A stretch of DNA of 38,795 bases from Bacillota bacterium (GTDB lineage: Bacteria > Bacillota > Clostridia > Christensenellales > QALW01). The position numbers were made by a program, and so were the translations under genes. Where the stretch lies: the NCBI GenBank assembly GCA_029007865.1, contig JAQXIQ010000022.1, positions 1 through 38,795 on the forward strand, written 5' to 3'. This document shows positions 10,921 to 28,863 of the stretch, one piece after another. Positions within the stretch are counted from its first letter, which is position 1. Every line of letters starts with the position of its first letter. Below the pieces are notes generated by a model. That model had not been told where the DNA came from and made no database searches. It saw only the letters and a list, made by a program, of their open reading frames with translations.

Positions 10921-13900
10921 TTATTTATCCAGCTTTCCTTTCTTCTTTTTGTCTACAATAATCGCAGTTCCGCCGGCAACTACTGCCGCTGCAGCAACGG
11001 CGCAAACAGCAACAACTACCGTCGTATTCCCGTTATTATTGTCGCCCTCTCCCGTCGAATCACTGCTGACCGTGATTGCTTTAATAAGGGCTTTCATTTG
11101 CGAATTTGTAAGCAACGGATTGCTCAATCCTTCGGAAGCTTTTACATATACCTCGTCTTTATCCGAGGTTCCGTCAGCCTTAAGATAAGCCTGCATAGCA
11201 GTCTCAAGTAAAGACTTATCGCAGAAAGGTTTTCCGTAAGCTTCTATCTCAGCCAACTGGAGCATATATCCATCCGCCGATGCGGCATCTCCACCAAGTT
11301 TTGTAGCAATCAGTTTTACGAATCTCGCTTTTACCGGAGCGTCCAGATTGACTGTGTAATTCTCGTCCGGAGCCTTACTGTCCGTCTCATTTGCTATATC
11401 AATCCAGGCAATACCGTTTTCCGACAGTTGAATCCTGAAGTCCACCGGCCAGCACTTTGCGCCTTTGGGGTAAACAACCACTTTATCCACATTAAATATA
11501 TCGCAAAAGTCGATTATTACATATTCGGTTGCGTCGGGATTTCTATGCAATTTAACATCAGATGTCCAGCCTGTGTCAAGATCTCCGTCATTGATATACA
11601 AAGCACCCCAGTTCCACTGACGGTATACTTCACTTGTGTCCGAAGAAACCTCATAAGGCTTATTAAGTGCTAAGTTCATGCCTTCGGTATATTCAACAGG
11701 TTCTTCGTCTTCGGCGAAAGCCAAGGGAGCAGGAATCTTGCCGTCGGGATCATCATATACTTCAATTTCGGCAAGCGCAAGATATTCTTCGTAATAGCCG
11801 GAAAATTCAAGCATTATATACTGCGCCTTAACGGCAGCGAACGTCAATGAAGGAACAGACATGCTTTCGATTTTGTATCCGGAAATACCGGCAACCTGCC
11901 GCCAATGAACCTTGTCGTCCGAAACCGATACCTTAATATCCGAAGCAAAATTCCGTCCCAGCGTCACCCTTGAGCCCGCAGGATAAATGTCAACCCTTGT
12001 AAACTCGCGAACGCCCGGGAACGCAACAACAATTTTACTTGCGCTGTTGCCATCGGAAGCCCAACCCTGCGTACCGTCGGCAGCCGCCGCTTTGATGCCG
12101 TCATTGAGGTTGTTCATATACTTATCGTTGGTACCGCATGAGCTATCGCAAATGATTTGAGCGTCAAGAGCAATATTATCCTTGGAAACCGTGTTAATCT
12201 TGTCATGCATTGTGAAATCAACATTTTCGGGCAAAGCAAACAGCTCGCCGTCACCCGCCGCAAGAGTAAGCGTGATTTGGTTGTCGTTAATCGCAAAGTT
12301 CTCAAGTGAACCGTTAACCTTGCTGACCTTCTGTATGGAAGTGATAGACGAGTCAAGCTTCAAGGAAAACGTTTTTTCTTTCAAAAAGTCGTTGTTTACC
12401 ACCATTATGTAGTTTCTGCCCGTGTTTTTATCGCGCAAAAGAGAAACGGTAAAACCGGTGTTATCCGTAGCTTGAACAGGAAAATCGCCGGGGATTTTTT
12501 TCTGTCCCCATGTATTGCCGTTCAGATATACCTCTACCGCATCGCAATTGATAAGAGTCTTACCAAGCGCAAGAACTTCAGCGTCAACCATCTTAACTGT
12601 TTCGTAATGAGCATTCGGAACTCCGTGGGGAGAAATTATACCGTCATTGAAGGGCTCGCTTCTGTTTACGGGAGTAAACCATGTAAAGTATGATATCTGC
12701 TTATATCCGTAAGCAAGATACATATATACTTCATATCTGATGGCACTGTCCTCGGGTCTGCGGAAACCGTTTATAAGCTCGACAGTCTGAATATATGCGC
12801 CGGTTTTTACATTATTGTCAAGACCGACCTGTCTTACAACCTGCATATTGGAAAGGAACCCTTCCCTGTCCATTGAACCGGCAGCTACGCCGAACGGGTA
12901 CCTGTCGTACATCAGATAGTCGAGGGTATACCCTGAAGCCTCACAAAGCTTACACCAGTCGTCAAGCTGACTCTTATATGTCTCCATTGAAGGATAAGCT
13001 GCCGAAGGCAGGAAATTCAAATGCATATATCTGTCGGGATCGGCATCCTTCAGATTTTTATAGCCGCCGATATACAGATTTGGGTTATACGGCTCATCGA
13101 GGATATAGTATCCACCTACCGACGGTATGTTCTTGTATTCGTCCACTATGCTCTTTATTGTATCAGCCGATGCATTAAGCACATTGTTCCCAAGCCTGCT
13201 GTCTCCGACCGTCATCTGCAAACCGTATTTATTGCAAAGACGAAGCATTTCCATTTGCGTCTCTTTGTCATCCAGCAGATCGTTTGCGCCCATAACATAA
13301 GTGATATTAGCATCCGCAATGAGCTTATATTGCTCATCATTTATATAATCCTTTGTGGGCGGCCAGAAAATAGAAATCATAATATTGTCATCAAAAGGGG
13401 TAGGTCTCTCTTTCACTACAACCACCTCACATTTATCACTGAGATTATTCGCGCTGTCTGTAGCGGTTATTGTTGCTTTTCCAACGGCTTTGGCAGTTAC
13501 GACCCCATCGGAATCCACCGTCGCAACCGCGGGATTATCCGACCCCCATGTTACCAACGCTGCTTTTTCTGCATTTATCGCAGTTGCGGTAAGTGTATCG
13601 GAAGTGCCCCGAAGCAGTTCCAAAGCACACTTTGAGATCCTGAGAGTGGGTACCTTTTCAACAGGCGGCTCGTCGGATACTGCGTAAACGGCGATCTCAC
13701 CAAGCTGCACCAGGAGCCCGTCAGACGCCTGCCCCGCGCCTGCGGATTCAACCGCATATCTTTCATAAACATGGATCTGAACATATTGAACCGTTACCGC
13801 AGCAAATCTATGAATGTTCGGTGCAGTGGGTGACTTTACATTTTTCTTTGAATCGGCAACCTCGGTATACCGCTTACCGTCGGCGGATACTTTGACCTTA

Positions 13901-14301
13901 TATGATGTCGGGAATACCGCCGAGGTACCTTTGGGGAACACGCCTACTGCTGATACTTCGGCAGGGTTCTTGAGCTTAATGGTTATTGTAACAGGCGCTG
14001 TTTTATCGGTTTCCTGATCATAAGGGTTTGTTGACCAGCCAAAATCCGTATTGCCGTCAATCAAAAATCTTTTATCCCATAATTCGCCGGGCATCTGGTA
14101 GCTGTTCTCTTCACCTTTCTTATTTGCAGTGCAATCAGATATGGTAACCTCGGCACCTCCGGCGACATTCCGAGTGGAGGGCGGCGCATTGCCCGCAATC
14201 GAGTCATCCGTTCCTTCAAAAGCGAGCGCCGGTACTTGTGCAAGCAGCACCATAACCGTCATAAGCAAAGCAATAATACTGCACAGGTTTTTCTTTTTCA
14301 T
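10921..14301 (-). CDS. Large secreted surface protein: F5/8C (discoidin) domains, Big2-like domain, central glycoside-hydrolase/TIM-barrel-like region, C-terminal TM anchor
   Basis: Start MKKKNLCSIIALLMTVMVLL (SD GGAGGATC); repeated F5/8C-like segments (FGWSTNPYDQ..., TGWTSDVKLHRNPD...FVKLIATKLGG); Big2 segment (ATAINAEKAALVTWGSDNPAVATVDSDGVVTAKAVGKATITAT); GGYYILDEP in the central domain; TM + KKKKGKLDK tail. Confidence 0.85.
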   Translation of the reverse strand: MKKKNLCSIIALLMTVMVLLAQVPALAFEGTDDSIAGNAPPSTRNVAGGAEVTISDCTANKKGEENSYQMPGELWDKRFLIDGNTDFGWSTNPYDQETDKTAPVTITIKLKNPAEVSAVGVFPKGTSAVFPTSYKVKVSADGKRYTEVADSKKNVKSPTAPNIHRFAAVTVQYVQIHVYERYAVESAGAGQASDGLLVQLGEIAVYAVSDEPPVEKVPTLRISKCALELLRGTSDTLTATAINAEKAALVTWGSDNPAVATVDSDGVVTAKAVGKATITATDSANNLSDKCEVVVVKERPTPFDDNIMISIFWPPTKDYINDEQYKLIADANITYVMGANDLLDDKETQMEMLRLCNKYGLQMTVGDSRLGNNVLNASADTIKSIVDEYKNIPSVGGYYILDEPYNPNLYIGGYKNLKDADPDRYMHLNFLPSAAYPSMETYKSQLDDWCKLCEASGYTLDYLMYDRYPFGVAAGSMDREGFLSNMQVVRQVGLDNNVKTGAYIQTVELINGFRRPEDSAIRYEVYMYLAYGYKQISYFTWFTPVNRSEPFNDGIISPHGVPNAHYETVKMVDAEVLALGKTLINCDAVEVYLNGNTWGQKKIPGDFPVQATDNTGFTVSLLRDKNTGRNYIMVVNNDFLKEKTFSLKLDSSITSIQKVSKVNGSLENFAINDNQITLTLAAGDGELFALPENVDFTMHDKINTVSKDNIALDAQIICDSSCGTNDKYMNNLNDGIKAAAADGTQGWASDGNSASKIVVAFPGVREFTRVDIYPAGSRVTLGRNFASDIKVSVSDDKVHWRQVAGISGYKIESMSVPSLTFAAVKAQYIMLEFSGYYEEYLALAEIEVYDDPDGKIPAPLAFAEDEEPVEYTEGMNLALNKPYEVSSDTSEVYRQWNWGALYINDGDLDTGWTSDVKLHRNPDATEYVIIDFCDIFNVDKVVVYPKGAKCWPVDFRIQLSENGIAWIDIANETDSKAPDENYTVNLDAPVKARFVKLIATKLGGDAASADGYMLQLAEIEAYGKPFCDKSLLETAMQAYLKADGTSDKDEVYVKASEGLSNPLLTNSQMKALIKAITVSSDSTGEGDNNNGNTTVVVAVCAVAAAAVVAGGTAIIVDKKKKGKLDK

Positions 14302-14499: not shown

Positions 14500-16215
14500 C
14501 TATTCAGAAATCGCGTTAGAAGCAAAAAGCGCTGCGCCGACCGCAGATTCTTCGGTCAGATCGGAAACAGAAGGTTTGCTGCCGAAATACTCCTCTATCA
14601 CCGTACACAGCAGCGGATTTTTTCTGACGGCATTTCCGGATGCAATTATGCAGCCGCTATTGCTTTTATCCATTTTTACATAAGCATCATACAATTCCTT
14701 TATCATGCCGTGCATTACCCCGTTAACAAGATAGCCCGGGAGAAAATTGTCCGCCGTTATACCCGTAATACTGCCTGTTTTATCCGGCTCAAGACGCGTT
14801 CCGCAGAAAGCGGTACACACCTCCGGAACTCTGACTTCGGGGCCGCATTGCTTTGCGAGCTTTTCCAACAGTCCGTACTGCTCGTGCTCCTCTCCGGTGG
14901 CGGTCTGTATTACGGCGCGCATAAACCGTTCCGTAAGAGCATAAGCATAGCCCCCGCACAGCGCCGAGTAGCACTTAAGGAATTTTCCGTTAAAATACGG
15001 CCGTATCTCAATGCCTTCATCGGTACTGCAGCAATTGTCGCACACCACCGATATCTGACTTCCGGTGCCGATATTGATTAACACCGCATCCTCGCTGCTT
15101 CCGGCCGTGGCTCCCAAAAAACTTGCCTGATGATCACCTATAGCCGTGTAAACCGGGATTCTGCCATCATGTAGCCCAACCTGCTGCGCCGAATTAACCA
15201 CCTCCGGCAAAACCGAAATATCCACGCCCAGCCTGCAAAGCGCTTCGCGGTCAAAGTCCATCGTCCGCAGATCAAAGTACCCCAGCGACGCAGCGTTTAT
15301 TGCGTGCATCAGCGGCTTCTTTCTGCCGGTGAGCCGCATACAGGCATAATCCATCACGGTACATATCGTCGCGCCGTCGCCCGGTATTTCCCCGCTTTGC
15401 GTCAGACAGAAATGTGTAAGCAGTCCGTACCCCGTCGGAACCCTTATCCCGGTACGCCGGTATGCCTCGTCACAGTATGTTCCCTCACCGTTGAAGATTC
15501 TGTCGCCGCTCTTATCCTGCCAGGTGTACAGCGGAGAAACGCTGTGCCCCTCGCAGTCCAGATACAGTATACCGTGCATTTGCCCCGTAACGCCTATCGC
15601 GCTGATATTTGGATAGGTACGCTTAACCATATCAAGAAGCGCCGTAACCTCGGAAATTATCTTTTCCGGATCCTGAGTTTTATATCCCGCGCCGCCCGGT
15701 ACAGCGCTGTTATTCGGTATATTATACGACTCCTCCGAGGCATTCTCTCTGTTTACAACAACAAGGCTTATTGTGCTGGTTCCGATATCTATACCCACCG
15801 TCACCGGAGCCTCCCTGCGGAAGCCCGAGTCGGTATCCTCTGTTTTTTTGCCGGAAGCAAGCTCGCTGTCCCGCAGAGCCTGCAGCATGACATTCCAGTC
15901 AGAACAGTTTTCCAGCATGGTACGGCACATTTCCAACTGCTGCGAGTTATTCAGCCTGTCCTCCCTCAGCGTTTTTAACCGTGTTTTTATCAGCGATTCC
16001 AGAGAGATCATTCCGTTCTGCCAAAGCAGTATATCGGAAATACTGACATCCACGGCTCTCAAAGCCTTTATCCTGAGTATCTTGCCTATGAGTTCCTCAC
16101 TGTACTCACGGTAAGCATTGTCCTTTCTTTCCGTGCTGAACAAGCCCTTATCCTCATAGAACCTCAGGGTTTTCTTGCTCAGACCGGTTCTGTCCGAAGC
16201 TTCGTTGATATTCAT
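14500..16215 (-). CDS. MerR-type HTH regulator fused to an FGGY-family carbohydrate kinase (sedoheptulokinase-like)
   Basis: N-terminus MNINEASDRTGLSKKTLRFYEDKGLFSTERKDNAYREYSEELIGKILRIKALR = MerR HTH; from about residue 140 GIDIGTSTISLVVV, IGVTGQMHGILYLD, LYTWQDKSGD, INIGTGSQISVV = FGGY kinase. Start at 16215 by SD spacing. Confidence 0.9.
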   Translation of the reverse strand: MNINEASDRTGLSKKTLRFYEDKGLFSTERKDNAYREYSEELIGKILRIKALRAVDVSISDILLWQNGMISLESLIKTRLKTLREDRLNNSQQLEMCRTMLENCSDWNVMLQALRDSELASGKKTEDTDSGFRREAPVTVGIDIGTSTISLVVVNRENASEESYNIPNNSAVPGGAGYKTQDPEKIISEVTALLDMVKRTYPNISAIGVTGQMHGILYLDCEGHSVSPLYTWQDKSGDRIFNGEGTYCDEAYRRTGIRVPTGYGLLTHFCLTQSGEIPGDGATICTVMDYACMRLTGRKKPLMHAINAASLGYFDLRTMDFDREALCRLGVDISVLPEVVNSAQQVGLHDGRIPVYTAIGDHQASFLGATAGSSEDAVLINIGTGSQISVVCDNCCSTDEGIEIRPYFNGKFLKCYSALCGGYAYALTERFMRAVIQTATGEEHEQYGLLEKLAKQCGPEVRVPEVCTAFCGTRLEPDKTGSITGITADNFLPGYLVNGVMHGMIKELYDAYVKMDKSNSGCIIASGNAVRKNPLLCTVIEEYFGSKPSVSDLTEESAVGAALFASNAISE

Positions 16216-16247
16216 CCGCATCATTCCTTTTATATTGGCTGATACTG

Positions 16248-18097: not shown

Positions 18098-18132
18098 AGC
18101 GCCGGAGCCAAAACTTAGCTCCGGCGCTTTAC
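18098..18132. terminator. Bidirectional terminator between convergent SDR and GGDEF-EAL genes
   Basis: 11-bp stem AGCGCCGGAGC / GCTCCGGCGCT followed by TTTA. Confidence 0.65.
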
Positions 18133-18143
18133 TGCCTCCGGTG

Positions 18144-20432
18144 TCAATTCCGGTTCTGGCCGGAAGGACGCAAACGTTTTATGTTGTTAAGCGAGGTGTC
18201 CTCTTTTAAGAAATCAACAAAATCGATCACGTGCATAGGCTTTGCGTAATAATACCCCTGAATAATATCGCAGCCCAGCGCTTTCATCCTGTTCAGATCC
18301 TCTACCGTTTCCACTCCCTCCTGGGTAACGGTCATTCCCAGATCCTTGCTCACACTTATAAGCATTTTGAGCAGAGCGTCATCCTTCGCGGGATCTTTGC
18401 CATGTTTTATCAGGGCGCGGTCCAGTTTAAGCTCGTCTACAGAGAGCTCTTTTACCGCTATCAGCGAAGAGCTGCCCATGCCGAAATCGTCAATGGAGCA
18501 TCTGAATCCGTTGCTCCTGAGCGTAGTTATCAGGGTTTCAAACAGCTCGTAGCAGTCGGCGGCAAAGCTCTCCGTAAACTCCAGTGTTATAAAGCCGTCC
18601 GCAACTCCGTATTCCTTCTTTTTTTCAATATAGAATTTCAGGAAATCCGGCCGGATTGCCGTCGCACGCGACACATTTACGGACAGCGGAACCATCCTGT
18701 CGCCCTCGGCAATAGAGTTGTTCATAAAGCTGCAGGTTTCTTCGAAAACATAATGGTCAAGCTCGGAAATAAATCCGTTTGCCTCAAACAAACGAATGAA
18801 GGAATCCGGCGCAACATAGGACTGGCGCTGAAGGTCATACCATCTAACCAGAACCTCGGCGGAATCCATGCGATCGTTCCTGATACTGTACTTGGGCTGA
18901 AAGAACAGCTTGAATTCCCTGTTCCTGAGCGCAGCTTTCATTTTGCTCTCGTACTCCGCCTCCATCAGATAAGCGGAAGCTATTGCGGAATCATAAACGG
19001 TATAGGGCGAATTAGGATGGCTTCGGTTTGCGCGCATAGCTATTTTTGCACAGTCCAGCATATTGTCTATATCTCTTCTGCTGTTATCCCTGACCGGGAA
19101 AATACCCACCGAAATCTTAATATCCACGCCGGTATTACCGGAAGCTGTGTAATTTGATACGATGGTACCCATGAGCTTTATTCTTTCTCCCAGCTCGGTT
19201 ATATCGGTATAATGCAAAATCATTACAAAGGAATCGTCCACCGCATGACCGAAACTCTCGTTATCGTCTGTCATCTGCTGGCAGATATTGGAAACAAACT
19301 CCAGTATTGCACCGGCCTCCTGATCGCCCAGGTGCTCCTTGATGTAATGAAACTTGTATATGTCAAAATACACTACGGCATATCTGGCAAACCGGTTTTC
19401 CTCCAGGATCGTTTTTGCCTCCAGCATAAACTTCTGGTATGTATTGCATCCGAGCTTCGGATCCCGATCTATGACCCGTAAAAGCTTCTTTTTGTCCGAA
19501 TGTATCTGAATACTGCTAATAACCAGTGCCGCAACGGCAAAAATCGCAAGAAATACCGAAACTCCCAGGACTCTGTCGTACAGCAGATATTCGCTGCGCA
19601 GTATCTCATCGGCAGAAAATAGCTGCAGGATAAAGCATTCGTCCCTCATTCCGTCAACATTCGTGCATACCGCGACATATTTATCGCCGTCTATAATGAT
19701 TGAGGAAACGCCTCCGTTTGCCTGGACGGCATTCTGTCTGACCGTATCAACGGCGGCCTTGCTTTGGGAAATATTATACAGATAATCAAAGGCATTATGG
19801 CTCACATCGGTTTTCATTCCGTCGGAAACCTGCGTTTCCACAATACCTCCGTCCTGCGAACAGAAAAAATAATACCTTGTGTACTGATGCAGATTATCAG
19901 TACCGTTAAACAGCCTGGAAACGGCAAAATAAGCCAGCACGCCGTCGGTAAGAGCGCTGCCCTGAACCGGGCTGTACACGGCTACGCACGGGATCCCCAG
20001 CGAAGGATCAATATATATTTTGCTGCAGGATAATCTGCCGGAAGCAATGATCTGCTGCACCTGCGGCTCCGAAGCGGAACCGACGCTCTCCCCGTATCGG
20101 TACTCCGGAACACCGTCCTGAAGAAACTGCAGACAGATAAACCCGTATTGCGCCACCTTCTCGTTGCCGAACTCGTCCATTTTTTCAAAGTCGCTGACGG
20201 CTCCCGCTTGCGAAGCTATGCGTTCCACCTCGGATAACGAGGTCTCTATTTCATTCCGGACGGATTCAGTGGCCTGCATTGAGTAGCGCTGGGCAATAAT
20301 TGCTGATTCGTTATCAAAATATGAAGCGCTTTGTGACAGAAGATAAAAGCTGTATGCCAGTGACGAGATAATAACTATACCGATAAAAGCCGGAAGGACG
20401 CTTTTTATCATGCTTCGTAATTTAGTTTTCAC
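18144..20432 (-). CDS. Membrane-anchored GGDEF (degenerate) - EAL protein, probable c-di-GMP phosphodiesterase
   Basis: N-terminal TM, extracytoplasmic region, second TM; GGDEF site reads AVDDS; EAL domain retains EVLVRW, SVNVS, EFTES, DDFGMGSSSL, ELKLDR, QEGVET, QGYYYAKPM. Confidence 0.9.
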   Translation of the reverse strand: MKTKLRSMIKSVLPAFIGIVIISSLAYSFYLLSQSASYFDNESAIIAQRYSMQATESVRNEIETSLSEVERIASQAGAVSDFEKMDEFGNEKVAQYGFICLQFLQDGVPEYRYGESVGSASEPQVQQIIASGRLSCSKIYIDPSLGIPCVAVYSPVQGSALTDGVLAYFAVSRLFNGTDNLHQYTRYYFFCSQDGGIVETQVSDGMKTDVSHNAFDYLYNISQSKAAVDTVRQNAVQANGGVSSIIIDGDKYVAVCTNVDGMRDECFILQLFSADEILRSEYLLYDRVLGVSVFLAIFAVAALVISSIQIHSDKKKLLRVIDRDPKLGCNTYQKFMLEAKTILEENRFARYAVVYFDIYKFHYIKEHLGDQEAGAILEFVSNICQQMTDDNESFGHAVDDSFVMILHYTDITELGERIKLMGTIVSNYTASGNTGVDIKISVGIFPVRDNSRRDIDNMLDCAKIAMRANRSHPNSPYTVYDSAIASAYLMEAEYESKMKAALRNREFKLFFQPKYSIRNDRMDSAEVLVRWYDLQRQSYVAPDSFIRLFEANGFISELDHYVFEETCSFMNNSIAEGDRMVPLSVNVSRATAIRPDFLKFYIEKKKEYGVADGFITLEFTESFAADCYELFETLITTLRSNGFRCSIDDFGMGSSSLIAVKELSVDELKLDRALIKHGKDPAKDDALLKMLISVSKDLGMTVTQEGVETVEDLNRMKALGCDIIQGYYYAKPMHVIDFVDFLKEDTSLNNIKRLRPSGQNRN

Positions 20433-20465: not shown

Positions 20466-20690
20466 TTATTTATTTCTCAGGCTTATCTCCAGTTCCTGCA
20501 TTTTGCTTCTAAGTTCTTCTATTTCCGCAGTATAGCGGTTAAAATAATCAACATCGGTATCATCCGGAGTCGTATTTGATAAAATTGCGTTAATCAACGC
20601 CGCCTGTGAGCGAATGCGCTTTTTTTCTATCTCTTCTATCTTCTTTTTATACTTTTTTATGCCGCGTTTTAAAGTGAGTTTTTCAAACAT
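20466..20690 (-). CDS. Small coiled-coil hypothetical protein
   Basis: MFEKLTLKRGIKKYKKKIEEIEKKRIRSQAALINAILSN...ELRSKMQELEISLRNK; start overlaps the stop of the upstream signal peptidase. Confidence 0.65.
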   Translation of the reverse strand: MFEKLTLKRGIKKYKKKIEEIEKKRIRSQAALINAILSNTTPDDTDVDYFNRYTAEIEELRSKMQELEISLRNK

Positions 20691-21333
20691 TGTCGTCATT
20701 CTCCTCCGTTTTGATATCACTTTCATTTTCGCTTTGTTCCAGGCGTCTGACCTCTTCCTCAACCAGTCTTTCCATCCTGGTTTCCTTTGCTCTTTTTACA
20801 ACGTCAGCCATGCTTACGATAACCAGCACGGCCGCAGGCACAATAACAAAGACAAAAAATACTGCCGGCCTGGAAAAGAAACCCACAAAACCGGTAAGCG
20901 CATCGGCATTCCTTACATATTTGCCCACCAGATCGCTTTCAAAAACCGGAAAGGCGTCGTCAACGCTATTGTTGTCGCCCCGCGTAGTAAAAGAATATTC
21001 TCCGCTTGAACAGGACACATCCACGACGCGGTGTGTGTTGATCTTGCCGTATATCTGAGGGTCCCTGGAGCGGAACAATATTACATCCCCGACCCCGATC
21101 TGATCCGGGGCAACCTTTTGAGCCAGGATATAAGTACCCACCGGTATTTGGGGCTCCATGCTGGGCGAGATTATCTTTACCGTCGCATAGCTGCCGATAA
21201 AAGCCACATTGCCGTTAATATTGCAGAATGTCAGATATCCCACTATTGCGGCCATGATCACGACCAGCACGGATAACACTGCCGTGATGACCTTTTTTAT
21301 GATTTTTTTGCTTTTTTTATTCTCGGGCTTCAT
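20683..21333 (-). CDS. Signal peptidase I, SipW/ER type (Ser-His)
   Basis: ISPSMEPQIPVGTYIL, GDVILFRSRD, KINTHRVV (His in place of the general-base Lys), TTRGDNNSVDD. Confidence 0.88.
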   Translation of the reverse strand: MKPENKKSKKIIKKVITAVLSVLVVIMAAIVGYLTFCNINGNVAFIGSYATVKIISPSMEPQIPVGTYILAQKVAPDQIGVGDVILFRSRDPQIYGKINTHRVVDVSCSSGEYSFTTRGDNNSVDDAFPVFESDLVGKYVRNADALTGFVGFFSRPAVFFVFVIVPAAVLVIVSMADVVKRAKETRMERLVEEEVRRLEQSENESDIKTEENDDNV

Positions 21334-21362: not shown

Positions 21363-22556
21363 TTATTGTTTTTTCCTTTTACGCTGCTCCCTGCTGCGCA
21401 TATTATCGATCTTTCTCTGGGCGGTCAGAGCAGTTTCCACGGCATTGCGCACCTGAAGCTCGCCCTCCGACAGACGGCGCTGACCGGAAAGCTGCGAAAC
21501 GTTTACCACGCGGCGGTATTCCGTATCGTAAACGTTATACTCATCGGTCTGCACCTTTTTTAACTTTGTAACAATGTTTGGAGTTAACGGCTCATCGGTA
21601 TCCCTTGCGGCAACCACATCGGGAAAACCGTTGAAGCCCCTGCGTACATTATAGTCAAAAATCATATACTGCAGCGACAGCAGCGAATAAAGCTCTTTGA
21701 TATACTCGTCGCCGGGCTTTTCTGCTTTTTCCTCAACGTCAAGCACATAACCGACTTTTTCGTACGATTCGATATAGTCCCAAAGATCCATGCATTGCCT
21801 GAGATACTTGTTTTTCATTATGGCGTTTGTGCGCATTACAGGAGGCCGGACAAACCCGCCCTGCATATTCTTTACAAAAGAAGACTGCAGCAGATTAGCC
21901 AGCACCTTCCGGATACGCACCAGGCGTGCAAAGGAGCCGTCACTTTCCGCGTTTGCCTCCGGGTCGGTAACGCCGATGCTGAAGCTTATTCTGCCCTCAG
22001 AAGAACCTATAAGGAATTTGCTTTCAAAGTCAAGCTGCACTCCGGTTTCTTCCGTCCCTCTGCCCGCAATGGCGGAGTATCTTCGCTCCACAAAATCAAA
22101 AAGGCGCTGTATAAGCGTGTTTACAAACTTATTCTCATAAGTCTGCATGGTTTCTTCATTTATTACATTGAGAATTTTTGACGGAGTAATGTTTTCCCCG
22201 TCAAAACTGGTAATATAATCGGTATGCTGTGACAGGTGGCGAATGGATCTGTTGTTTATATTGCGCGAGAACTCTATGGGCATCACCTCTTCGCGTTCCT
22301 CAATGCCCACGGTATAATTACGGGTGACTATGTCCAGCACCGGCAGGCACGACTCAATGGCGCTCAGCCATTGCTCCTCGATCCTTTTGTGAACAGTCCT
22401 GCGGTTGAGCTTAAGAGAGGCATTGCCTGTCTGCATGGACCGGATAAAATCCCCGTAAAAGCCATAGCCCTCCGTAATACCGTCTATAAAATAACTGGTA
22501 TCGTTATATATACGCTCCATTTCCCTGGCATATTCTTCGCTGATATGCTCCGGCAC
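21363..22556 (-). CDS. DUF2357/McrC-N-like partner of the McrB-like ATPase, no recognisable nuclease domain
   Basis: ETMQTYENKFVNTLIQRLFDFVERRY resembles the DUF2357 motif; gene sits 15 nt downstream of the McrB-like ATPase; no PD-(D/E)xK signature seen. Confidence 0.5.
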   Translation of the reverse strand: MPEHISEEYAREMERIYNDTSYFIDGITEGYGFYGDFIRSMQTGNASLKLNRRTVHKRIEEQWLSAIESCLPVLDIVTRNYTVGIEEREEVMPIEFSRNINNRSIRHLSQHTDYITSFDGENITPSKILNVINEETMQTYENKFVNTLIQRLFDFVERRYSAIAGRGTEETGVQLDFESKFLIGSSEGRISFSIGVTDPEANAESDGSFARLVRIRKVLANLLQSSFVKNMQGGFVRPPVMRTNAIMKNKYLRQCMDLWDYIESYEKVGYVLDVEEKAEKPGDEYIKELYSLLSLQYMIFDYNVRRGFNGFPDVVAARDTDEPLTPNIVTKLKKVQTDEYNVYDTEYRRVVNVSQLSGQRRLSEGELQVRNAVETALTAQRKIDNMRSREQRKRKKQ

Positions 22557-22571
22557 ACCTCATACCCCCCG

Positions 22572-24188
22572 TCAGTACATTCTCTTGAGCCGGCCCAGAT
22601 AAGCGATACACTCGGTCATAGTGTCATCGCCGAAAACCGTATTGAGATAATCAATAAGTCCGTCGATCTCGTCGCGTATCAGCGAAAGATTGAGCGATTC
22701 AAACTTGCGGAAAACCTTCGTGGCAAGAATATAATCTATGCCCTCCAGCACCTGTCCTCCCGCAGCCACATAAACAGGCACAAAGGATTGCAGTTGCTTT
22801 ACGATACGGTTACCGAAAGCTACGCGGAATTTCTGTATGACATACATATCCACCTTTGAGATGTCGGACAGCAGCTTTTCGCTGACCGGATTGTTTTCGA
22901 TTGCCTCCCGGTACAGGTTTTCTACATAGGAATAGCGTACTCTGCACGGCCCGGTGAGGGGTGCGTCAAAAGGTACGCCCTTGCTGTCCAAATTTATCAC
23001 AAGCGCGCGGTCGTAAACCTTATCCGAGACGGAGAATGTGGAATCGTCGTTGTTTGCGGTGCCTATATACCAGACATTCGGAGGTATGATGAGCTTGCCG
23101 TCCTTGAGATGTCTGGGGTCGCTGTCCCAGGATGAGGGCACAAGCTCCAGCTTCCATTCGCTGACATCGGGCATTTCCAGTATGGAGAGCATTTCGGCAA
23201 AATAGTATTCCACTCTTGCTATGTTCATCTCGTCCAGTACGATTATGTTGATATCGTCATTGTATGAGGATTCGTAAATACGTCTCAAAACCTCGGTTTC
23301 GTTGTACTTCTTTGTAAACTCGTTGAAGTAGCCGAACAGCTCGGTGCGGTCTCTCCATGACGGCTGTACCGAAGCTATGGTGGCGTTGTTTTCAAAGAAC
23401 TTGCCCATGGCATACGGCAGCGAGGTTTTACCCGTACCCGAAATACCCTGAAGCAGAATGAGCTTTGTGGAAGCAAGGCCCGCGAACATCAAACGGATGG
23501 TTTTGATGTCGTAATACAGGTTCATGGATGTGCAGGCATAATTGCGGAATTCCTGGCAGAGCTGGGCAAGATCCATATCGTTCCGGTATTCCGGCTCCAG
23601 ATAATACTCGTATTTATCATCAACTGCGGACAGCCTGAAAAACCTGCGCGGCTCCTTGACCGCTTCCGCTTCTGCCTTGCGGTCCCCGATAACCGGGGCT
23701 GTCTGCGGAATATAGTCAGCCGGCAGGCTGCTGTTGTCGGTGCGCGACGCTTCCGCCTCGGCCTCTTCCCTGCTTTGGCGGAATATCTCGTTTATCGCCT
23801 CTACGGGGATGCTGGTCTGCCCTATTTTGAGCGCCATTATCCTCTCTTTTTCTTTGGTCAGGCGCATAACATCCCGGTGCATATCGGCAAGCTCCTGCAG
23901 GATGTCCTCGTTGCCCACCACCGAACGGCGGAAGCGCAGATACTTGCGTATGCCCAGAACAATAAGAAAAATAACGATAAACCAGATGCCGAACACCAGA
24001 ATGAATGCAAGTATTGACAATATCCAGTCCAGCACATTGAAAGACTTGCTGTATGAGGAGAACTGTTCAAGATAAAACGGTATGCCGAAGACTTTGACCA
24101 GCCCGCCGAATATACCCGAAACGATCTGCCACAAGCCGTCCAGCATAGTAGTAATAAAAGCATAAAACCAACTCAGAAAGCCGTCCAA
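22572..24188 (-). CDS. Membrane-anchored McrB-family AAA+ ATPase
   Basis: N-terminal hydrophobic segments; Walker A GISGTGKTSLP; QPSWRDRTELFGYFNEFTKKY; Walker B IIVLDEMNIARVEYYFAEMLSILE; sensor WYIGTANNDDSTFSVSDKVYDRA. TTG start with GAGGAG SD. Confidence 0.85.
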   Translation of the reverse strand: MDGFLSWFYAFITTMLDGLWQIVSGIFGGLVKVFGIPFYLEQFSSYSKSFNVLDWILSILAFILVFGIWFIVIFLIVLGIRKYLRFRRSVVGNEDILQELADMHRDVMRLTKEKERIMALKIGQTSIPVEAINEIFRQSREEAEAEASRTDNSSLPADYIPQTAPVIGDRKAEAEAVKEPRRFFRLSAVDDKYEYYLEPEYRNDMDLAQLCQEFRNYACTSMNLYYDIKTIRLMFAGLASTKLILLQGISGTGKTSLPYAMGKFFENNATIASVQPSWRDRTELFGYFNEFTKKYNETEVLRRIYESSYNDDINIIVLDEMNIARVEYYFAEMLSILEMPDVSEWKLELVPSSWDSDPRHLKDGKLIIPPNVWYIGTANNDDSTFSVSDKVYDRALVINLDSKGVPFDAPLTGPCRVRYSYVENLYREAIENNPVSEKLLSDISKVDMYVIQKFRVAFGNRIVKQLQSFVPVYVAAGGQVLEGIDYILATKVFRKFESLNLSLIRDEIDGLIDYLNTVFGDDTMTECIAYLGRLKRMY

Positions 24189-24229: not shown

Positions 24230-24913
24230 CTACTGCCCGTCGTCCTGCCCAGCCTCTCCGGCCTCCTGCTGTTTGCGAAGGTATTCCTCCACCGCCCGTT
24301 TTTTGATCTCCTCTTCTTCTTCCTTGCTTATCTTATTGCCGCCCTTCATGCGGATTATCAGGGCAATAAAATTATAAAGCTCAAAGAGGAAAAACACCAC
24401 AAGCGGCAGCACTATAACGCACAAAAAGCCCGTGGAAGTCTGCAGAAAATCGATCACATAGCCAACCCCGGCAAGCCTTGTGCCGGTATATTTTGCAAGC
24501 ACGTATGTGTGCATTATCGGTGCATCGTTTACGGGGTTGGTCTCGTTGTTGTCTCCCTTGGTGATATAGTAGGTATAGCCGCCTTCTTCATACCTTTCCA
24601 CTATACGGTGAGTGTTAAGCTCGCTTATACCGTCACCGTTCAGGTCGACATAATATGTAATAACATCTCCGGGCTGCAGCGTTGTCTTGTCTGCATTGGT
24701 CAGCACCTGATCTATGATCAGATCTCCGGTCTGAAAAGTTGGCTTCATGGAGTCCGACTGAATGGTTATCAGGCTTTTACCGAAGATATTGGATATTCCG
24801 TCTTTATTACTCTGCGAAGAAAATACCAGAACGGTAACAAACACCGCAAAGATGACAAACAGCCAGAGAATGACATTCCCGATTACAGAAAGCGTTTTTT
24901 TAACTGATTTCAT
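24230..24913 (-). CDS. Signal peptidase I, SipW/ER type (Ser-His)
   Basis: IQSDSMKPTFQTGDLIID, GDVITYY, LNTHRIV, ITKGDNNETND-like; start MKSVKKTLSV with GGAGGG SD. Confidence 0.9.
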   Translation of the reverse strand: MKSVKKTLSVIGNVILWLFVIFAVFVTVLVFSSQSNKDGISNIFGKSLITIQSDSMKPTFQTGDLIIDQVLTNADKTTLQPGDVITYYVDLNGDGISELNTHRIVERYEEGGYTYYITKGDNNETNPVNDAPIMHTYVLAKYTGTRLAGVGYVIDFLQTSTGFLCVIVLPLVVFFLFELYNFIALIIRMKGGNKISKEEEEEIKKRAVEEYLRKQQEAGEAGQDDGQ

Positions 24914-24929
24914 TTTTCCCTCCTGAGTA

Positions 24930-25799
24930 TCATCCGTGATTTGTATCATCCATGATACAGAAACCGAGAGACAGCGAAAATGTCTGTCCTCCTATTTTGG
25001 CAACACAGTCAAGAGACTGGCCCTCGACCCATATACGCACTACGATGCGTGTTATACCGTCTCGCCCAGGCTTCAAGGTAAAAAGCTTTGCCGACGTTCC
25101 GTTTTCAAAGCTCATGTACCGGGGCGCGATTTTATTCTGGGCATCCTTGATAACAACTCCGTCAAAAACGCCGTGGTTGCCCTGTGCGGCAAAAACAAGC
25201 GGGTCATTCGCGCCTGCGGAATTATTATCGCAATCGCTGTCCAGGAACGCCGCCCTTACGGTGTTTTGAATATTGCTGTCGTCGCCGGCAACCGATGTTG
25301 CGGTTGCAAGCAGCGCTATGTCGACCGTGCTTTCAGAATCGGTCTTGAAATACAGCGGCACATCTATCCAGTGCCCCTCAAAGGCCCCTCTTTCGACGTT
25401 CCATTTTATTCTGTTGCCTTGTTGGAACACAGCGTTTGCGGCGGCGCTGCCGTCGTTGCGTGCGCTCTCGGTCTGCCATATTGTACCGTCAAAGCCGGCA
25501 TAGGAAGACGCGGGCAGCAAATAAAACCTGTCCGTCTCAGGGTTATAGGGCTTATCCGGATCGTTCTGCGTCAGGCTCTTTACGATATCCTTAAGCTCCA
25601 CGTTGAGACTGTCCGTCCACGGCCCGTCCGCGGAAAGCGATATCTGCAGGTTTTCCGGTACGGTCACCTGTACATTCTGCCCTATTGCACGCACCCTTCT
25701 GGTCATGGTCATCCAACCGTATGACGAATAGCCCAACAGCATCACTGCCACGGCAAGGCAAAGAGCTGAGAGCATAATGGATTTTTTAGAATTGCTCAT
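24930..25799 (-). CDS. SipW-dependent TasA/camelysin-like exported protein (second copy)
   Basis: Signal MSNSKKSIMLSALCLAVAVMLLGYSSYGWMTMTRRVRAIGQNVQVTVP; C-terminal IVVRIWVEGQSLDC shared with neighbours; directly upstream of a SipW-type peptidase. Confidence 0.75.
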   Translation of the reverse strand: MSNSKKSIMLSALCLAVAVMLLGYSSYGWMTMTRRVRAIGQNVQVTVPENLQISLSADGPWTDSLNVELKDIVKSLTQNDPDKPYNPETDRFYLLPASSYAGFDGTIWQTESARNDGSAAANAVFQQGNRIKWNVERGAFEGHWIDVPLYFKTDSESTVDIALLATATSVAGDDSNIQNTVRAAFLDSDCDNNSAGANDPLVFAAQGNHGVFDGVVIKDAQNKIAPRYMSFENGTSAKLFTLKPGRDGITRIVVRIWVEGQSLDCVAKIGGQTFSLSLGFCIMDDTNHG

Positions 25800-25949: not shown

Positions 25950-26810
25950 TCAAGCATTAGGCAGCGAAGCTACATCGGCAAGCACAACCTCGATGTCGAA
26001 GTTGACATTTGCTCCCTTTGATACTACGCAGTCAGTATCCTGACCTTCATACCAAACACGAATGATGATATCCTGTGTGCCGCCAGCGCTCAGTTGCGCA
26101 ACATAATTTGCATCGTTATTTTTAGTTGCAACAGCGGTATATATACCAGTATCAGCAACTAAAGTTGGAACTCCAACGCTAATGGAATCCACCACTTTAT
26201 TATCGTGGTTTACAGCAGTACTATCAGGCTTATAAACCTTAACCATTGATTCATCTTCACCGCTTACGCTCATAACGGCTATACGAACAGGTTTTACGGA
26301 AAGTTTTCCCTGCGGATCATTGTTTTTCTTTGTTACCGTGATCTGGCTGACAACAACATTAACAGCGGAGTTACCTTCTGTCTTAATCGTGTATTTGAAA
26401 TCATAGTATCCGCCCGCCTTCGCATCTGCACTGCTAGCAGCGCCTACAGCCAGCTTCGCTTCCTCGAGAAGTGTCTGCTTACCATTAGGATCCGTCATAA
26501 AGAGAGAACCATTGGTTGCATTCAGCGGCTGTCCGTCTTTAACAACATAGATATCATTTTTCTTACCTGTATTCGAAGATGCAGGCATAAGAATGATATT
26601 TTGTCCGTTAATAGTAGAAATCTCAGCAAAAGCATCACTTGTTCCTGTTGCCATTATCAGAAGGTTGTTCGGAGCGGTAACGGTAACATTCATGCCCTGG
26701 GCAGTGACCTGTCTGCTCATGGTGAACCATGCGTACGATGCCGATGACATAACAACTGCAGCCACCAGAAGCATTGCAAGAGCAGGTATAAGTTTTCTTG
26801 TTGCTTTCAT
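25950..26810 (-). CDS. SipW-dependent TasA/camelysin-like exported protein (first copy, probable major subunit)
   Basis: Signal MKATRKLIPALAMLLVAAVVMSSASYAWFTMSRQVTAQGMNVTV; C-terminal IIIRVWYEGQDTDC; start at 26810 by AAAGAAAGG SD spacing. Confidence 0.75.
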   Translation of the reverse strand: MKATRKLIPALAMLLVAAVVMSSASYAWFTMSRQVTAQGMNVTVTAPNNLLIMATGTSDAFAEISTINGQNIILMPASSNTGKKNDIYVVKDGQPLNATNGSLFMTDPNGKQTLLEEAKLAVGAASSADAKAGGYYDFKYTIKTEGNSAVNVVVSQITVTKKNNDPQGKLSVKPVRIAVMSVSGEDESMVKVYKPDSTAVNHDNKVVDSISVGVPTLVADTGIYTAVATKNNDANYVAQLSAGGTQDIIIRVWYEGQDTDCVVSKGANVNFDIEVVLADVASLPNA

Positions 26811-26834
26811 ATTGTTCATCCTTTCTTTTATTAA

Positions 26835-26919: not shown

Positions 26920-27648
26920 CTATTCCGCCTCGTTCAAGGAGGCTTCTATGACCGAAATGTTCATGTCGGTCTTGAGGGAGCCGCCTATCAGGTCGTCTAT
27001 GCAGTCCGGGTCGTCCCCCTCCAGCCAGATGACCACCGTAAACTTTGTTACATCGCCCGGCTTAAAGTCCTCCACCTGTCTGCGCACGATAGTGCGCTCC
27101 GTCAGGAAATCCACACAGTCCTTTTCCGGTCCGGTGCCGTCGGAACGGGTCCTTGCGTAGGTGGTGTACTCGCCGTCCCGGTAAATCCTGATGCGGATGG
27201 CCTTGTCCACATCGTTCTTGACATTTGTAATAAACATATTGTATTCAAAGGTGACGGTATCCCGGCCTACATTTTTAAGATAGAAGGTATACGCCAGATA
27301 ATCGTCGCCGTTGTGCTGGCCGTTGATGCTGTCGATATCGTCGGGGAGATCGTTCTGGCTGATATTTGTGATATCCTCGGCGGTCTTTGCGTTAAGCCTG
27401 GAGATCTGGTAATCAAACTGCGGCGTTTCAGACAGGCTGAGGCTGTACTGAGTGGCGTCGTATTTGTTGACCGTGACCGTAAAGCTGCCAAACTTGGTGT
27501 ACAGCGCCGAAGCAATGTAAATTATTACGGTCAGTATTACCAGTATCACCAGAACCGAAAGGAGTATCTTGCGTATCAGGCTGTAATTCTTGGCCTCTTT
27601 GGCATTGCGTGCAAGAAAGCGCTCTTTACCCGGACGCGAAACCGACAT
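26920..27648 (-). CDS. Membrane-anchored TasA-like protein (third member, uncleaved N-terminal anchor predicted)
   Basis: Cytoplasmic basic N-terminus, TM KILLSVLVILVILTVIIYIASALY, then DYLAYTFYLKNVGRDTVTFEYNMFITNV and FKPGDVTKFTVVIWLEGDDPDC. Confidence 0.7.
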   Translation of the reverse strand: MSVSRPGKERFLARNAKEAKNYSLIRKILLSVLVILVILTVIIYIASALYTKFGSFTVTVNKYDATQYSLSLSETPQFDYQISRLNAKTAEDITNISQNDLPDDIDSINGQHNGDDYLAYTFYLKNVGRDTVTFEYNMFITNVKNDVDKAIRIRIYRDGEYTTYARTRSDGTGPEKDCVDFLTERTIVRRQVEDFKPGDVTKFTVVIWLEGDDPDCIDDLIGGSLKTDMNISVIEASLNEAE

Positions 27649-28349
27649 TACAGCACCTCCTGCTCCTCACCGGACTTGTCCTGAATATAGTAATCCGCGG
27701 CGGTATTGCTCCCCGCCCCCGCTGCTTTGGACTGCCTGCGCTCTATCACCTTGATGCCGCGCCCGTGAGCTATGTTGGCGCAGACCCCGGCCACCTGAGA
27801 GCTGTCAGCCGATGGGTCCAGAAGTACGAAATCCACGGGATAGGACGAAAGCCGCAGAACGGGACAGAACTCGTCGCCGAACTCGCTGAGAAGAAAGCGC
27901 ACCCCGTACTCCGTGCGGAGCCGGTGCATTTTTTCCGACGCTTCGGCGGCGTCCTCATAAAGAAGCTCGGAGGAAACCTCGGCAACCAGTGAGGAAAAAT
28001 CACAGCTCCCCTTTTTGCTCCGGCTTTCCAGCAGCTTCCTTAAATAATCCCGCATCAGTGCTTTTGCCGGAATATAGAAACTTGTCCAGCCCTCGGTTGC
28101 CTCGCGGTTCTGAGAAATTTCCGCAACGCGCTGAAACGCCCACGAGGACAGCCTCAGGCTTTGATTGTTCCGGTTTGTGATCACACGGTACTGCGCGGGA
28201 CAGAGTGTGCCGAGCTCCAGGCTGTTGATGCGCAGTTCCGTAAAGGTACCTGCGCGGCGCCCGTCCCTGCATGATAACACCTTATTGCACACAAGCTGCA
28301 AAGGCGAAACCCCGGATTTTATCATTGCTTCCGCAGCAGAATCCTTCAT
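27648..28349 (-). CDS. Degenerate EAL-like domain protein (hypothetical)
   Basis: AEVSSELLYEDAAEASEKMHRLRTEYGVRFLLSEFGDEFCPVLRLSSYPVDFVLLDPS...ANIAHGRGIKVIE follows the EAL C-half layout (ITES..L...G..i.LDDFG.g.ssl..L...PvD.lKiD...A..lg..viAE) with catalytic residues replaced. Stop overlaps the next start (TAATG). Confidence 0.5.
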   Translation of the reverse strand: MKDSAAEAMIKSGVSPLQLVCNKVLSCRDGRRAGTFTELRINSLELGTLCPAQYRVITNRNNQSLRLSSWAFQRVAEISQNREATEGWTSFYIPAKALMRDYLRKLLESRSKKGSCDFSSLVAEVSSELLYEDAAEASEKMHRLRTEYGVRFLLSEFGDEFCPVLRLSSYPVDFVLLDPSADSSQVAGVCANIAHGRGIKVIERRQSKAAGAGSNTAADYYIQDKSGEEQEVL

Positions 28350-28381
28350 GCGGTAAATTCTCCCCATTTTTTATCAAAGTA

Positions 28382-28410
28382 ATTATAACATTATTCTAGA
28401 ATTGTCGCAA
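28382..28410 (-). promoter_or_regulatory. SigA-type promoter heading the TasA-like/McrB-like operon
   Basis: TTGCGA - 17 bp - TATAAT with extended -10 TGT; TTCTAGAA palindrome inside the spacer. Confidence 0.7.
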
Positions 28411-28639: not shown

Positions 28640-28678
28640 GGGTCTAAAAATCAAAAAGCACTTGCCGGAACAAGTGCT
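28640..28678 (-). terminator. Rho-independent terminator of an unidentified minus-strand transcript
   Basis: AGCACTTG TTCCGG CAAGTGCT then TTTTTGATTTTT on the minus strand. Confidence 0.7.
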
Positions 28679-28831: not shown

Positions 28832-28863
28832 AAAGCCTCAAAGGCATAAGCCTTTGAGGCTTT
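28832..28863 (-). terminator. Long perfect hairpin downstream of the DMP19-like gene, probable terminator
   Basis: AAAGCCTCAAAGGC ATAA GCCTTTGAGGCTTT, 14-bp perfect stem; ACTAATTTTTC follows on the minus strand. Confidence 0.6.

Follow-up and report, generated by a model that had tools for sequence, protein, structure and literature searches.

In the CoCoNuT paper (eLife 2024, PMC11090510), an NxD variant of the sensor motif defines the NxD branch of the McrB family, and DUF2357 is described as the portion of McrC that stimulates McrB. One paragraph of that paper names a type called CoCoPALM, giving no mechanism there and deferring the detail to a later paper. Its N-terminal transmembrane (TM) segment and coiled coil are described as FtsB-like, the DUF2357 partner usually carries a coiled coil, and the neighboring signal peptidase was inferred to act in pilus assembly (PMC11090510). 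In the open-access literature the eLife paper and its preprint were the only places where the term was found in this sense, and the later paper was not found. A literature search for a link between SipW and McrB gave nothing beyond chance.

The locus analyzed here lies in a window of 38,795 nucleotides, the whole stretch of DNA under study, from a genome of the order Christensenellales. Judged by the published description, the locus fits CoCoPALM, with an NxD McrB-type core fused to a TM segment and a coiled coil, a DUF2357 partner and a signal peptidase as neighbor (PMC11090510). To that brief published account it would add fibre subunits resembling TasA and bundling pili, an EAL protein that has lost its catalytic residues, nuclease loss, a DUF2357-peptidase fusion and a separate clade, some of which may be known to its authors.

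Several better characterized systems resemble parts of the locus. McrBC of E. coli (PDB 6hz4, 6ut6, 7vsr) has a homologous AAA+ core (E 3e-8) and a DUF2357-bearing partner, whereas the window has NxD in place of NxxD, a membrane anchor in place of a DNA-binding domain, no nuclease and other neighbors. The tapA-sipW-tasA and camelysin operons of the B. subtilis type likewise combine a SipW-type peptidase with beta-sandwich subunits bearing SipW-type signals, and the model of one window subunit matches TasA best. However, AAA+ and DUF2357 genes are absent from those operons, and the window has two peptidases and several subunits. In B. subtilis, TapA and SipW assist TasA assembly by donor-strand exchange, and two papers on TasA mention neither ATP nor an ATPase (PMC9674648, PMC10151520), indicating that such fibres do not in general require a motor. 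Archaeal bundling pili (P. calidifontis, 7ueg) gave the second-best structural match, and both window peptidases match the sigpep_I_arch family, but the window system is bacterial and includes AAA, DUF2357 and EAL genes. A precedent for the move of an McrB-family AAA+ protein out of restriction and into the cell envelope is PcdA of S. aureus (PMC10602043), which differs in its EVE domains, its degenerate Walker motifs, the lack of a DUF2357 partner and its role in division-plane choice.

The AAA+ protein and its relatives

The AAA+ gene occupies positions 22572..24188 on the minus strand (read from 24188 to 22572) and encodes a protein of 538 residues. An earlier note on this DNA had given the same ends and left the strand unstated. 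The TTG start that it reported was seen; a Shine-Dalgarno-like GAGGAG lies some 10 nt before the start, which is also preceded by a TGA stop in the same frame. The protein consists of a TM helix (residues 54-80), a coiled-coil-like segment (about 95-125, heptad-like as judged by eye), the AAA core (about 225-400) and a C-terminal helical part. The two motifs and the hydrophobic stretch quoted in the note are present, and the NTPase core is intact, with the motifs GISGTGKT, LDEMN and TANNDD. The description of these as classical McrB signatures did not hold, in that the sensor carries NxD and then a further D instead of NxxD, and GTxNxDD is found across the SipW-linked members. The protein thus falls in the NxD branch.

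The note had also proposed several hydrophobic helices. Hydropathy, the sole measure of TM status here and applied without a trained TM predictor, reached a maximum of 3.3 (19-residue mean) at residues 54-80, one clear TM helix. The remainder amounts to a single weak hydrophobic or amphipathic helix at residues 16-40. A segment with hydropathy above 1.8 precedes Walker A in 80 of 81 CoCoPALM-type homologues, the lone exception (L129) being cut by a contig end, and in all 17 tandem or distant homologues. By the same measure, a comparable helix was present in none of the 13 McrBs that adjoin McrC nucleases, so the anchor is not a chance feature. The TM helix is followed by RKYLRFRR, which by the positive-inside rule would place the AAA core in the cytoplasm. 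With a TM signal this strong and conserved, the note's view of an McrB-family AAA+ protein at the membrane rather than on DNA is supported, the location being predicted.

Pfam gave only a weak AAA_5 match to the protein (19.3 bits; cut-off 22) and no modified-DNA reader domain, the region before the core being taken up by the TM helix and the coiled coil. When a profile of 16 orthologues was compared with the PDB, the sole relative at E<=0.01 was E. coli McrB (E 3e-8 to 7e-8). The motifs GISGTGKTS, LDEMNxAR and GTANxDDSTF are invariant in the 16 aligned members, and mean column identity in the alignment of orthologues is 58% across many genera. An origin as a phage gene was also considered and rejected, since viral contigs yielded only 8 distant AAA relatives with 23-36% identity.

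A tree of AAA cores separated the nuclease-linked McrB proteins from the rest with support of 100/100. When soluble NxD relatives from other Bacillota were included, the TM-anchored proteins formed one clade (100/99; 200/200 bootstrap trees), in a tree that had long branches and whose bootstrap had not quite settled. Two soluble relatives were examined; one has an MrcB_N reader, and both have a DUF2357 partner with a PDDEXK_7 nuclease. All 16 scanned members of the AAA+ family matched the PADLOC candidate defence family PDC-M26A, the window protein with 118 bits (E 9.2e-35, AAA region only); the two soluble relatives matched it with 208-214 bits. The DUF2357 protein gave no PADLOC match to the partner family PDC-M26B up to E = 1. 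The tree position, together with the domains and scores of the soluble relatives, indicates that the window protein is related to the restriction-type McrB proteins and does not lie inside them. The placement among nuclease-partnered restriction McrBs that would have told against the note was therefore not found, the anchored clade lying outside them. The protein appears to be a restriction-related motor that has no DNA-reading and DNA-cutting partners and has gained a membrane anchor.

A sister clade of anchored proteins occurs in tandem AAA-DUF2357-AAA loci beside MBG/AgI-II and transglutaminase surface proteins and not beside SipW, in support of the view that all of the anchored clade acts at the envelope. 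The tandem genes that flank DUF2357 (L060, L063, L064, L066) have identical or nearly identical AAA cores and differing N-termini, suggesting gene conversion or mixed rings. The tandem sister loci also contain a GH3-family glycosidase with a C-terminal AAA domain of the same family that has lost its Walker motifs (L060:12389-15724, L063:12656-16168, L066:4648-7806 and L065:4342-7737); Glyco_hydro_3_C and Fn3-like domains were found in the two that were scanned.

The DUF2357 partner and the signal peptidases

The earlier note placed the AAA+ gene between the fibre-like genes and the second peptidase, which is right except that a DUF2357 gene (22556..21363) also intervenes. That McrC-like partner, the two flanking genes of the c-di-GMP family and the published CoCoPALM name were all absent from the note. 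The partner gene (21363..22556, minus strand) begins 15 bp downstream of the AAA+ gene and encodes 397 residues of the McrC N-terminal type (Pfam DUF2357, 6.3e-7), the protein ending soon past the DUF2357 domain. A DUF2357 match was obtained in 26 of the 28 partner orthologues scanned. No nuclease domain was detected in the window partner or in any of 28 aligned orthologues, and 8 others of up to 1320 residues gave none either; by comparison, the PD-(D/E)xK nuclease was readily detected in the soluble NxD relatives. The C-terminal tails of the orthologues are coiled-coil, disordered or absent, and the window partner has only a short C-terminal helix. Its AlphaFold2 (AF2) model (pLDDT 77.6, pTM 0.52) contained no extra C-terminal fold, and a Foldseek search with it returned nothing significant and no McrC structure, so that the assignment of the partner rests on the Pfam profile.

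The AAA-DUF2357 pair is enclosed by two signal peptidases of the SipW type, both on the minus strand. Peptidase 1 (24230..24949) is of the Ser-His type with SMKP...THRI (NCBIfam SipW 4.9e-33, sigpep_I_arch 9.5e-26), and peptidase 2 (20683..21333) has SMEP...THRV (sigpep_I_arch 6.9e-25, SipW 8.2e-22). In 14 loci, all of the Ruminococcus type, the DUF2357 protein runs on into a full SipW-type peptidase domain (Pfam Peptidase_S26). Where 9.5 kb or more of downstream sequence was available, in 8 of the fused loci, the separate second peptidase is always absent; it is present in 34 of 36 unfused loci. The fusion was found in the isolates R. flavefaciens YRD2003, Y1 and MC2020 and is therefore no assembly artefact. 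It is the best evidence for a partnership between the McrBC-derived pair and the fibre peptidase.

The probable fibre operon and its conservation

The cluster extends from 28367 to 18144 on a single strand in the order EAL, three fibre-like genes, SipW, AAA, DUF2357, SipW and GGDEF-EAL. A promoter-like site with a TG (TTGCGA-17-TATAAT; 28382..28410, minus strand) lies 15 bp before the EAL gene, although such matches occurred at chance frequency and were no commoner than in shuffled sequence. A terminator-like stem of 14 pairs, 9 of them G-C (18098..18128, minus strand), lies 16 bp past the GGDEF-EAL gene and is the probable end of the transcription unit. Similar stems are found upstream of the cluster at 28657..28678 (minus strand) and 28863..28832. 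An ORF of 98 residues (20466..20762, minus strand) overlaps the end of peptidase 2; a search for relatives matched only the window, and it may be no gene. The window genes beyond the cluster have ordinary metabolic, transport and surface functions. Among the minus-strand ORFs outside it, 14500-16224 seems by eye to join a MerR-type HTH to a sugar kinase of the FGGY type, and 10921-14301 encodes a large secreted protein carrying a Big_2 domain in addition to three F5/8 type C domains.

The three fibre-like genes are all on the minus strand. Subunits A (24930..25799) and B (25950..26819) have SipW-type signals with SYGWMT and SYAWFT, respectively, and the YAWF-type signal was seen in many subunits of the B and A types. 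Subunit C (26920..27648) has a basic cytosolic N-terminus, a TM helix and a beta-sandwich, is the best conserved of the three, and is homologous to subunit B (profile comparison probability 98.9%). There was no Pfam camelysin match among these subunits, and comparison of the fibre profiles with PDB sequences gave nothing useful. The AF2 model of subunit C (pLDDT 86.7) consisted of an N-terminal TM helix and a beta-sandwich. A Foldseek search of 350,542 PDB chains with this model placed the TasA fibre 8aur at the top (2.7e-4) and the P. calidifontis bundling pilus 7ueg second (5.1e-4). These were the only matches below 0.001, and the TM-scores of 0.27-0.30 and rmsd of 10-11 Å indicate that the superposition is partial. 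No report of TasA-like fibres from rumen Clostridia came up in a literature search. In subunit C (27648-26920) and its orthologues a basic, LRRTAKEVKRH-like cytosolic N-terminus is conserved before the TM helix, and this is a possible contact site for the AAA ring. Huge proteins with SipW-type signals were observed near the cluster in several relatives (for example L133:14020-17763 and L086:4592-8914), one of them with BspA-type leucine-rich repeats.

At the two ends of the cluster lie minus-strand genes of the c-di-GMP family. The upstream gene (27648..28367) encodes an EAL-fold protein (Pfam EAL 3.8e-12) in which the EAL, DDFG and KxD motifs are replaced. The EAL, DDFG and lysine motifs are also lost in nearly all of 40 upstream orthologues, suggesting that this protein is non-catalytic and possibly ligand-binding. 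The downstream GGDEF-EAL protein (18144..20432) keeps the EAL catalytic motifs EVLVR, DDFG, KLDR and EGVET, as the downstream EAL domains do in nearly all cases when 40 loci were compared. The combination of a dead EAL with an intact GGDEF-EAL protein suggests control by c-di-GMP or a related signal.

An AAA homologue was found in 66 of the 248 genomes of the order and an McrC nuclease in 15 of the 248. Most of the 40 neighborhoods in the order share the sequence EAL, fibre gene or genes, SipW, AAA, DUF2357 and SipW on one strand. A wider set of 80 named loci was drawn from Clostridia MAGs and from cultured Ruminococcus flavefaciens, Eubacterium ruminantium and Ruminococcus sp. FC2018. Every one of the 80 has a SipW gene within 8 kb; these loci were the best-scoring hits and share ancestry, so that the count does not represent 80 independent events. 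SipW-like genes number only 2-6 per genome, and about 0.04 would therefore be expected in a random 20 kb. DUF2357 directly follows the AAA gene in 72 of 76 loci, a fibre homologue is nearby in 61 of 67, and an EAL protein is upstream in 34 of 47. As controls, neither SipW nor fibre genes were found near 14 McrC-nuclease loci or 16 soluble NxD loci. An unbiased search of the neighbors in the 80 loci revealed no further universal component; the other recurrent neighbors were one small TM protein (19 loci) and assorted large proteins with SipW-type signals. Three loci of the Erysipelotrichaceae type (L142, L143, L146) keep SipW, AAA and DUF2357 and have small secreted-looking proteins at the fibre position; no fibre homologue was detected in them within the sequence covered. 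The genome of the window also has a SipW-camelysin locus on another contig (L191, contig C35) with no AAA homologue in the roughly 20 kb examined, indicating that SipW processing does not as a rule depend on the ring.

Possible function of the AAA+ ring

We consider it likely that the AAA+ protein has a role in the biogenesis or control of surface fibres. The best reading is that a restriction motor has been co-opted for the biogenesis of TasA/bundling-pilus-type fibres in an operon of the CoCoPALM type. The AAA+ protein would form a ring at the membrane, on its cytoplasmic side, and DUF2357 would stimulate nucleotide hydrolysis by the ring in the way that McrC stimulates McrB. This assembly would work at the exit site where the SipW peptidases release the subunits, and NTP would be used to deliver, unfold or gate them, leading to controlled growth of donor-strand fibres. 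The dead EAL and intact GGDEF-EAL proteins would put the system under c-di-GMP or a related signal. Active powering of fibre assembly by the ring is proposed tentatively.

The possibility was considered that the locus serves in phage defence, the anchored AAA ring and DUF2357 protein sensing infection at the envelope. The genes for fibres and peptidases would then supply effectors or a surface shield. The PDC-M26A match (9e-35), shared by all 16 scanned members, would agree with this, as would the resemblance of the soluble NxD relatives to restriction systems through MrcB_N and PDDEXK_7. However, the classical-type defence relatives outscore the window protein for that family (208-214 vs 118 bits), the partner has no nuclease and the AAA+ protein no reader domain. 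Moreover, SipW is linked in 80/80 loci, DUF2357 can be fused to the peptidase, and the neighbors outside the cluster have ordinary roles in metabolism, transport and the cell surface. Defence appears improbable, and the AAA+ protein probably helps to build fibres rather than fight phages. The kinship to nuclease-bearing NxD systems might also be the mark of a decayed restriction system, in which the AAA/DUF2357 pair was trapped beside fibre genes and has no function there. Simple decay was rejected as scarcely credible because the catalytic motifs are invariant, with 58% mean column identity across many genera, and the gene order and the fusion are conserved.

The ring could instead be a regulator or a quality-control device, the AAA-DUF2357 pair controlling the peptidase or clearing stalled subunits; the dead EAL protein could, for instance, relay a c-di-GMP signal to the pair. 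This reading is somewhat doubtful but would account for a DUF2357-SipW fusion that points at the peptidase, for the dead EAL and intact GGDEF-EAL proteins as recurrent neighbors, and for TasA-type fibres that can grow without a motor. The NTPase motifs, however, are invariant in the 16 aligned members, as expected for real turnover and not for a nucleotide switch. Active powering and regulation or quality control are not separable by sequence.

If fibre biogenesis is indeed the function, gut Clostridia might possess a distinct pathway in which an McrB-derived, membrane-anchored NTPase ring and its DUF2357 activator, physically coupled to the SipW peptidase, actively drive the export or polymerization of donor-strand (TasA/bundling-type) fibres under a c-di-GMP-family signal read by the dead EAL protein; this fuller proposal is offered with reserve. 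The fusion of DUF2357 to the peptidase gives a precise prediction as to which parts touch, and the cultured carriers Ruminococcus flavefaciens and Eubacterium ruminantium make the operon testable. Defence-gene catalogues may be counting these AAA/DUF2357 genes as phage defence. To our knowledge, TasA-type and bundling-pilus fibres form outside the cell and are not known to depend on a dedicated motor. Coupling of such subunits to an NTPase ring from a restriction system would amount to a fibre machine of a new type, and the operon, which is widespread in rumen and gut Clostridia, would clearly exemplify the re-use of parts of immune systems in surface structures.
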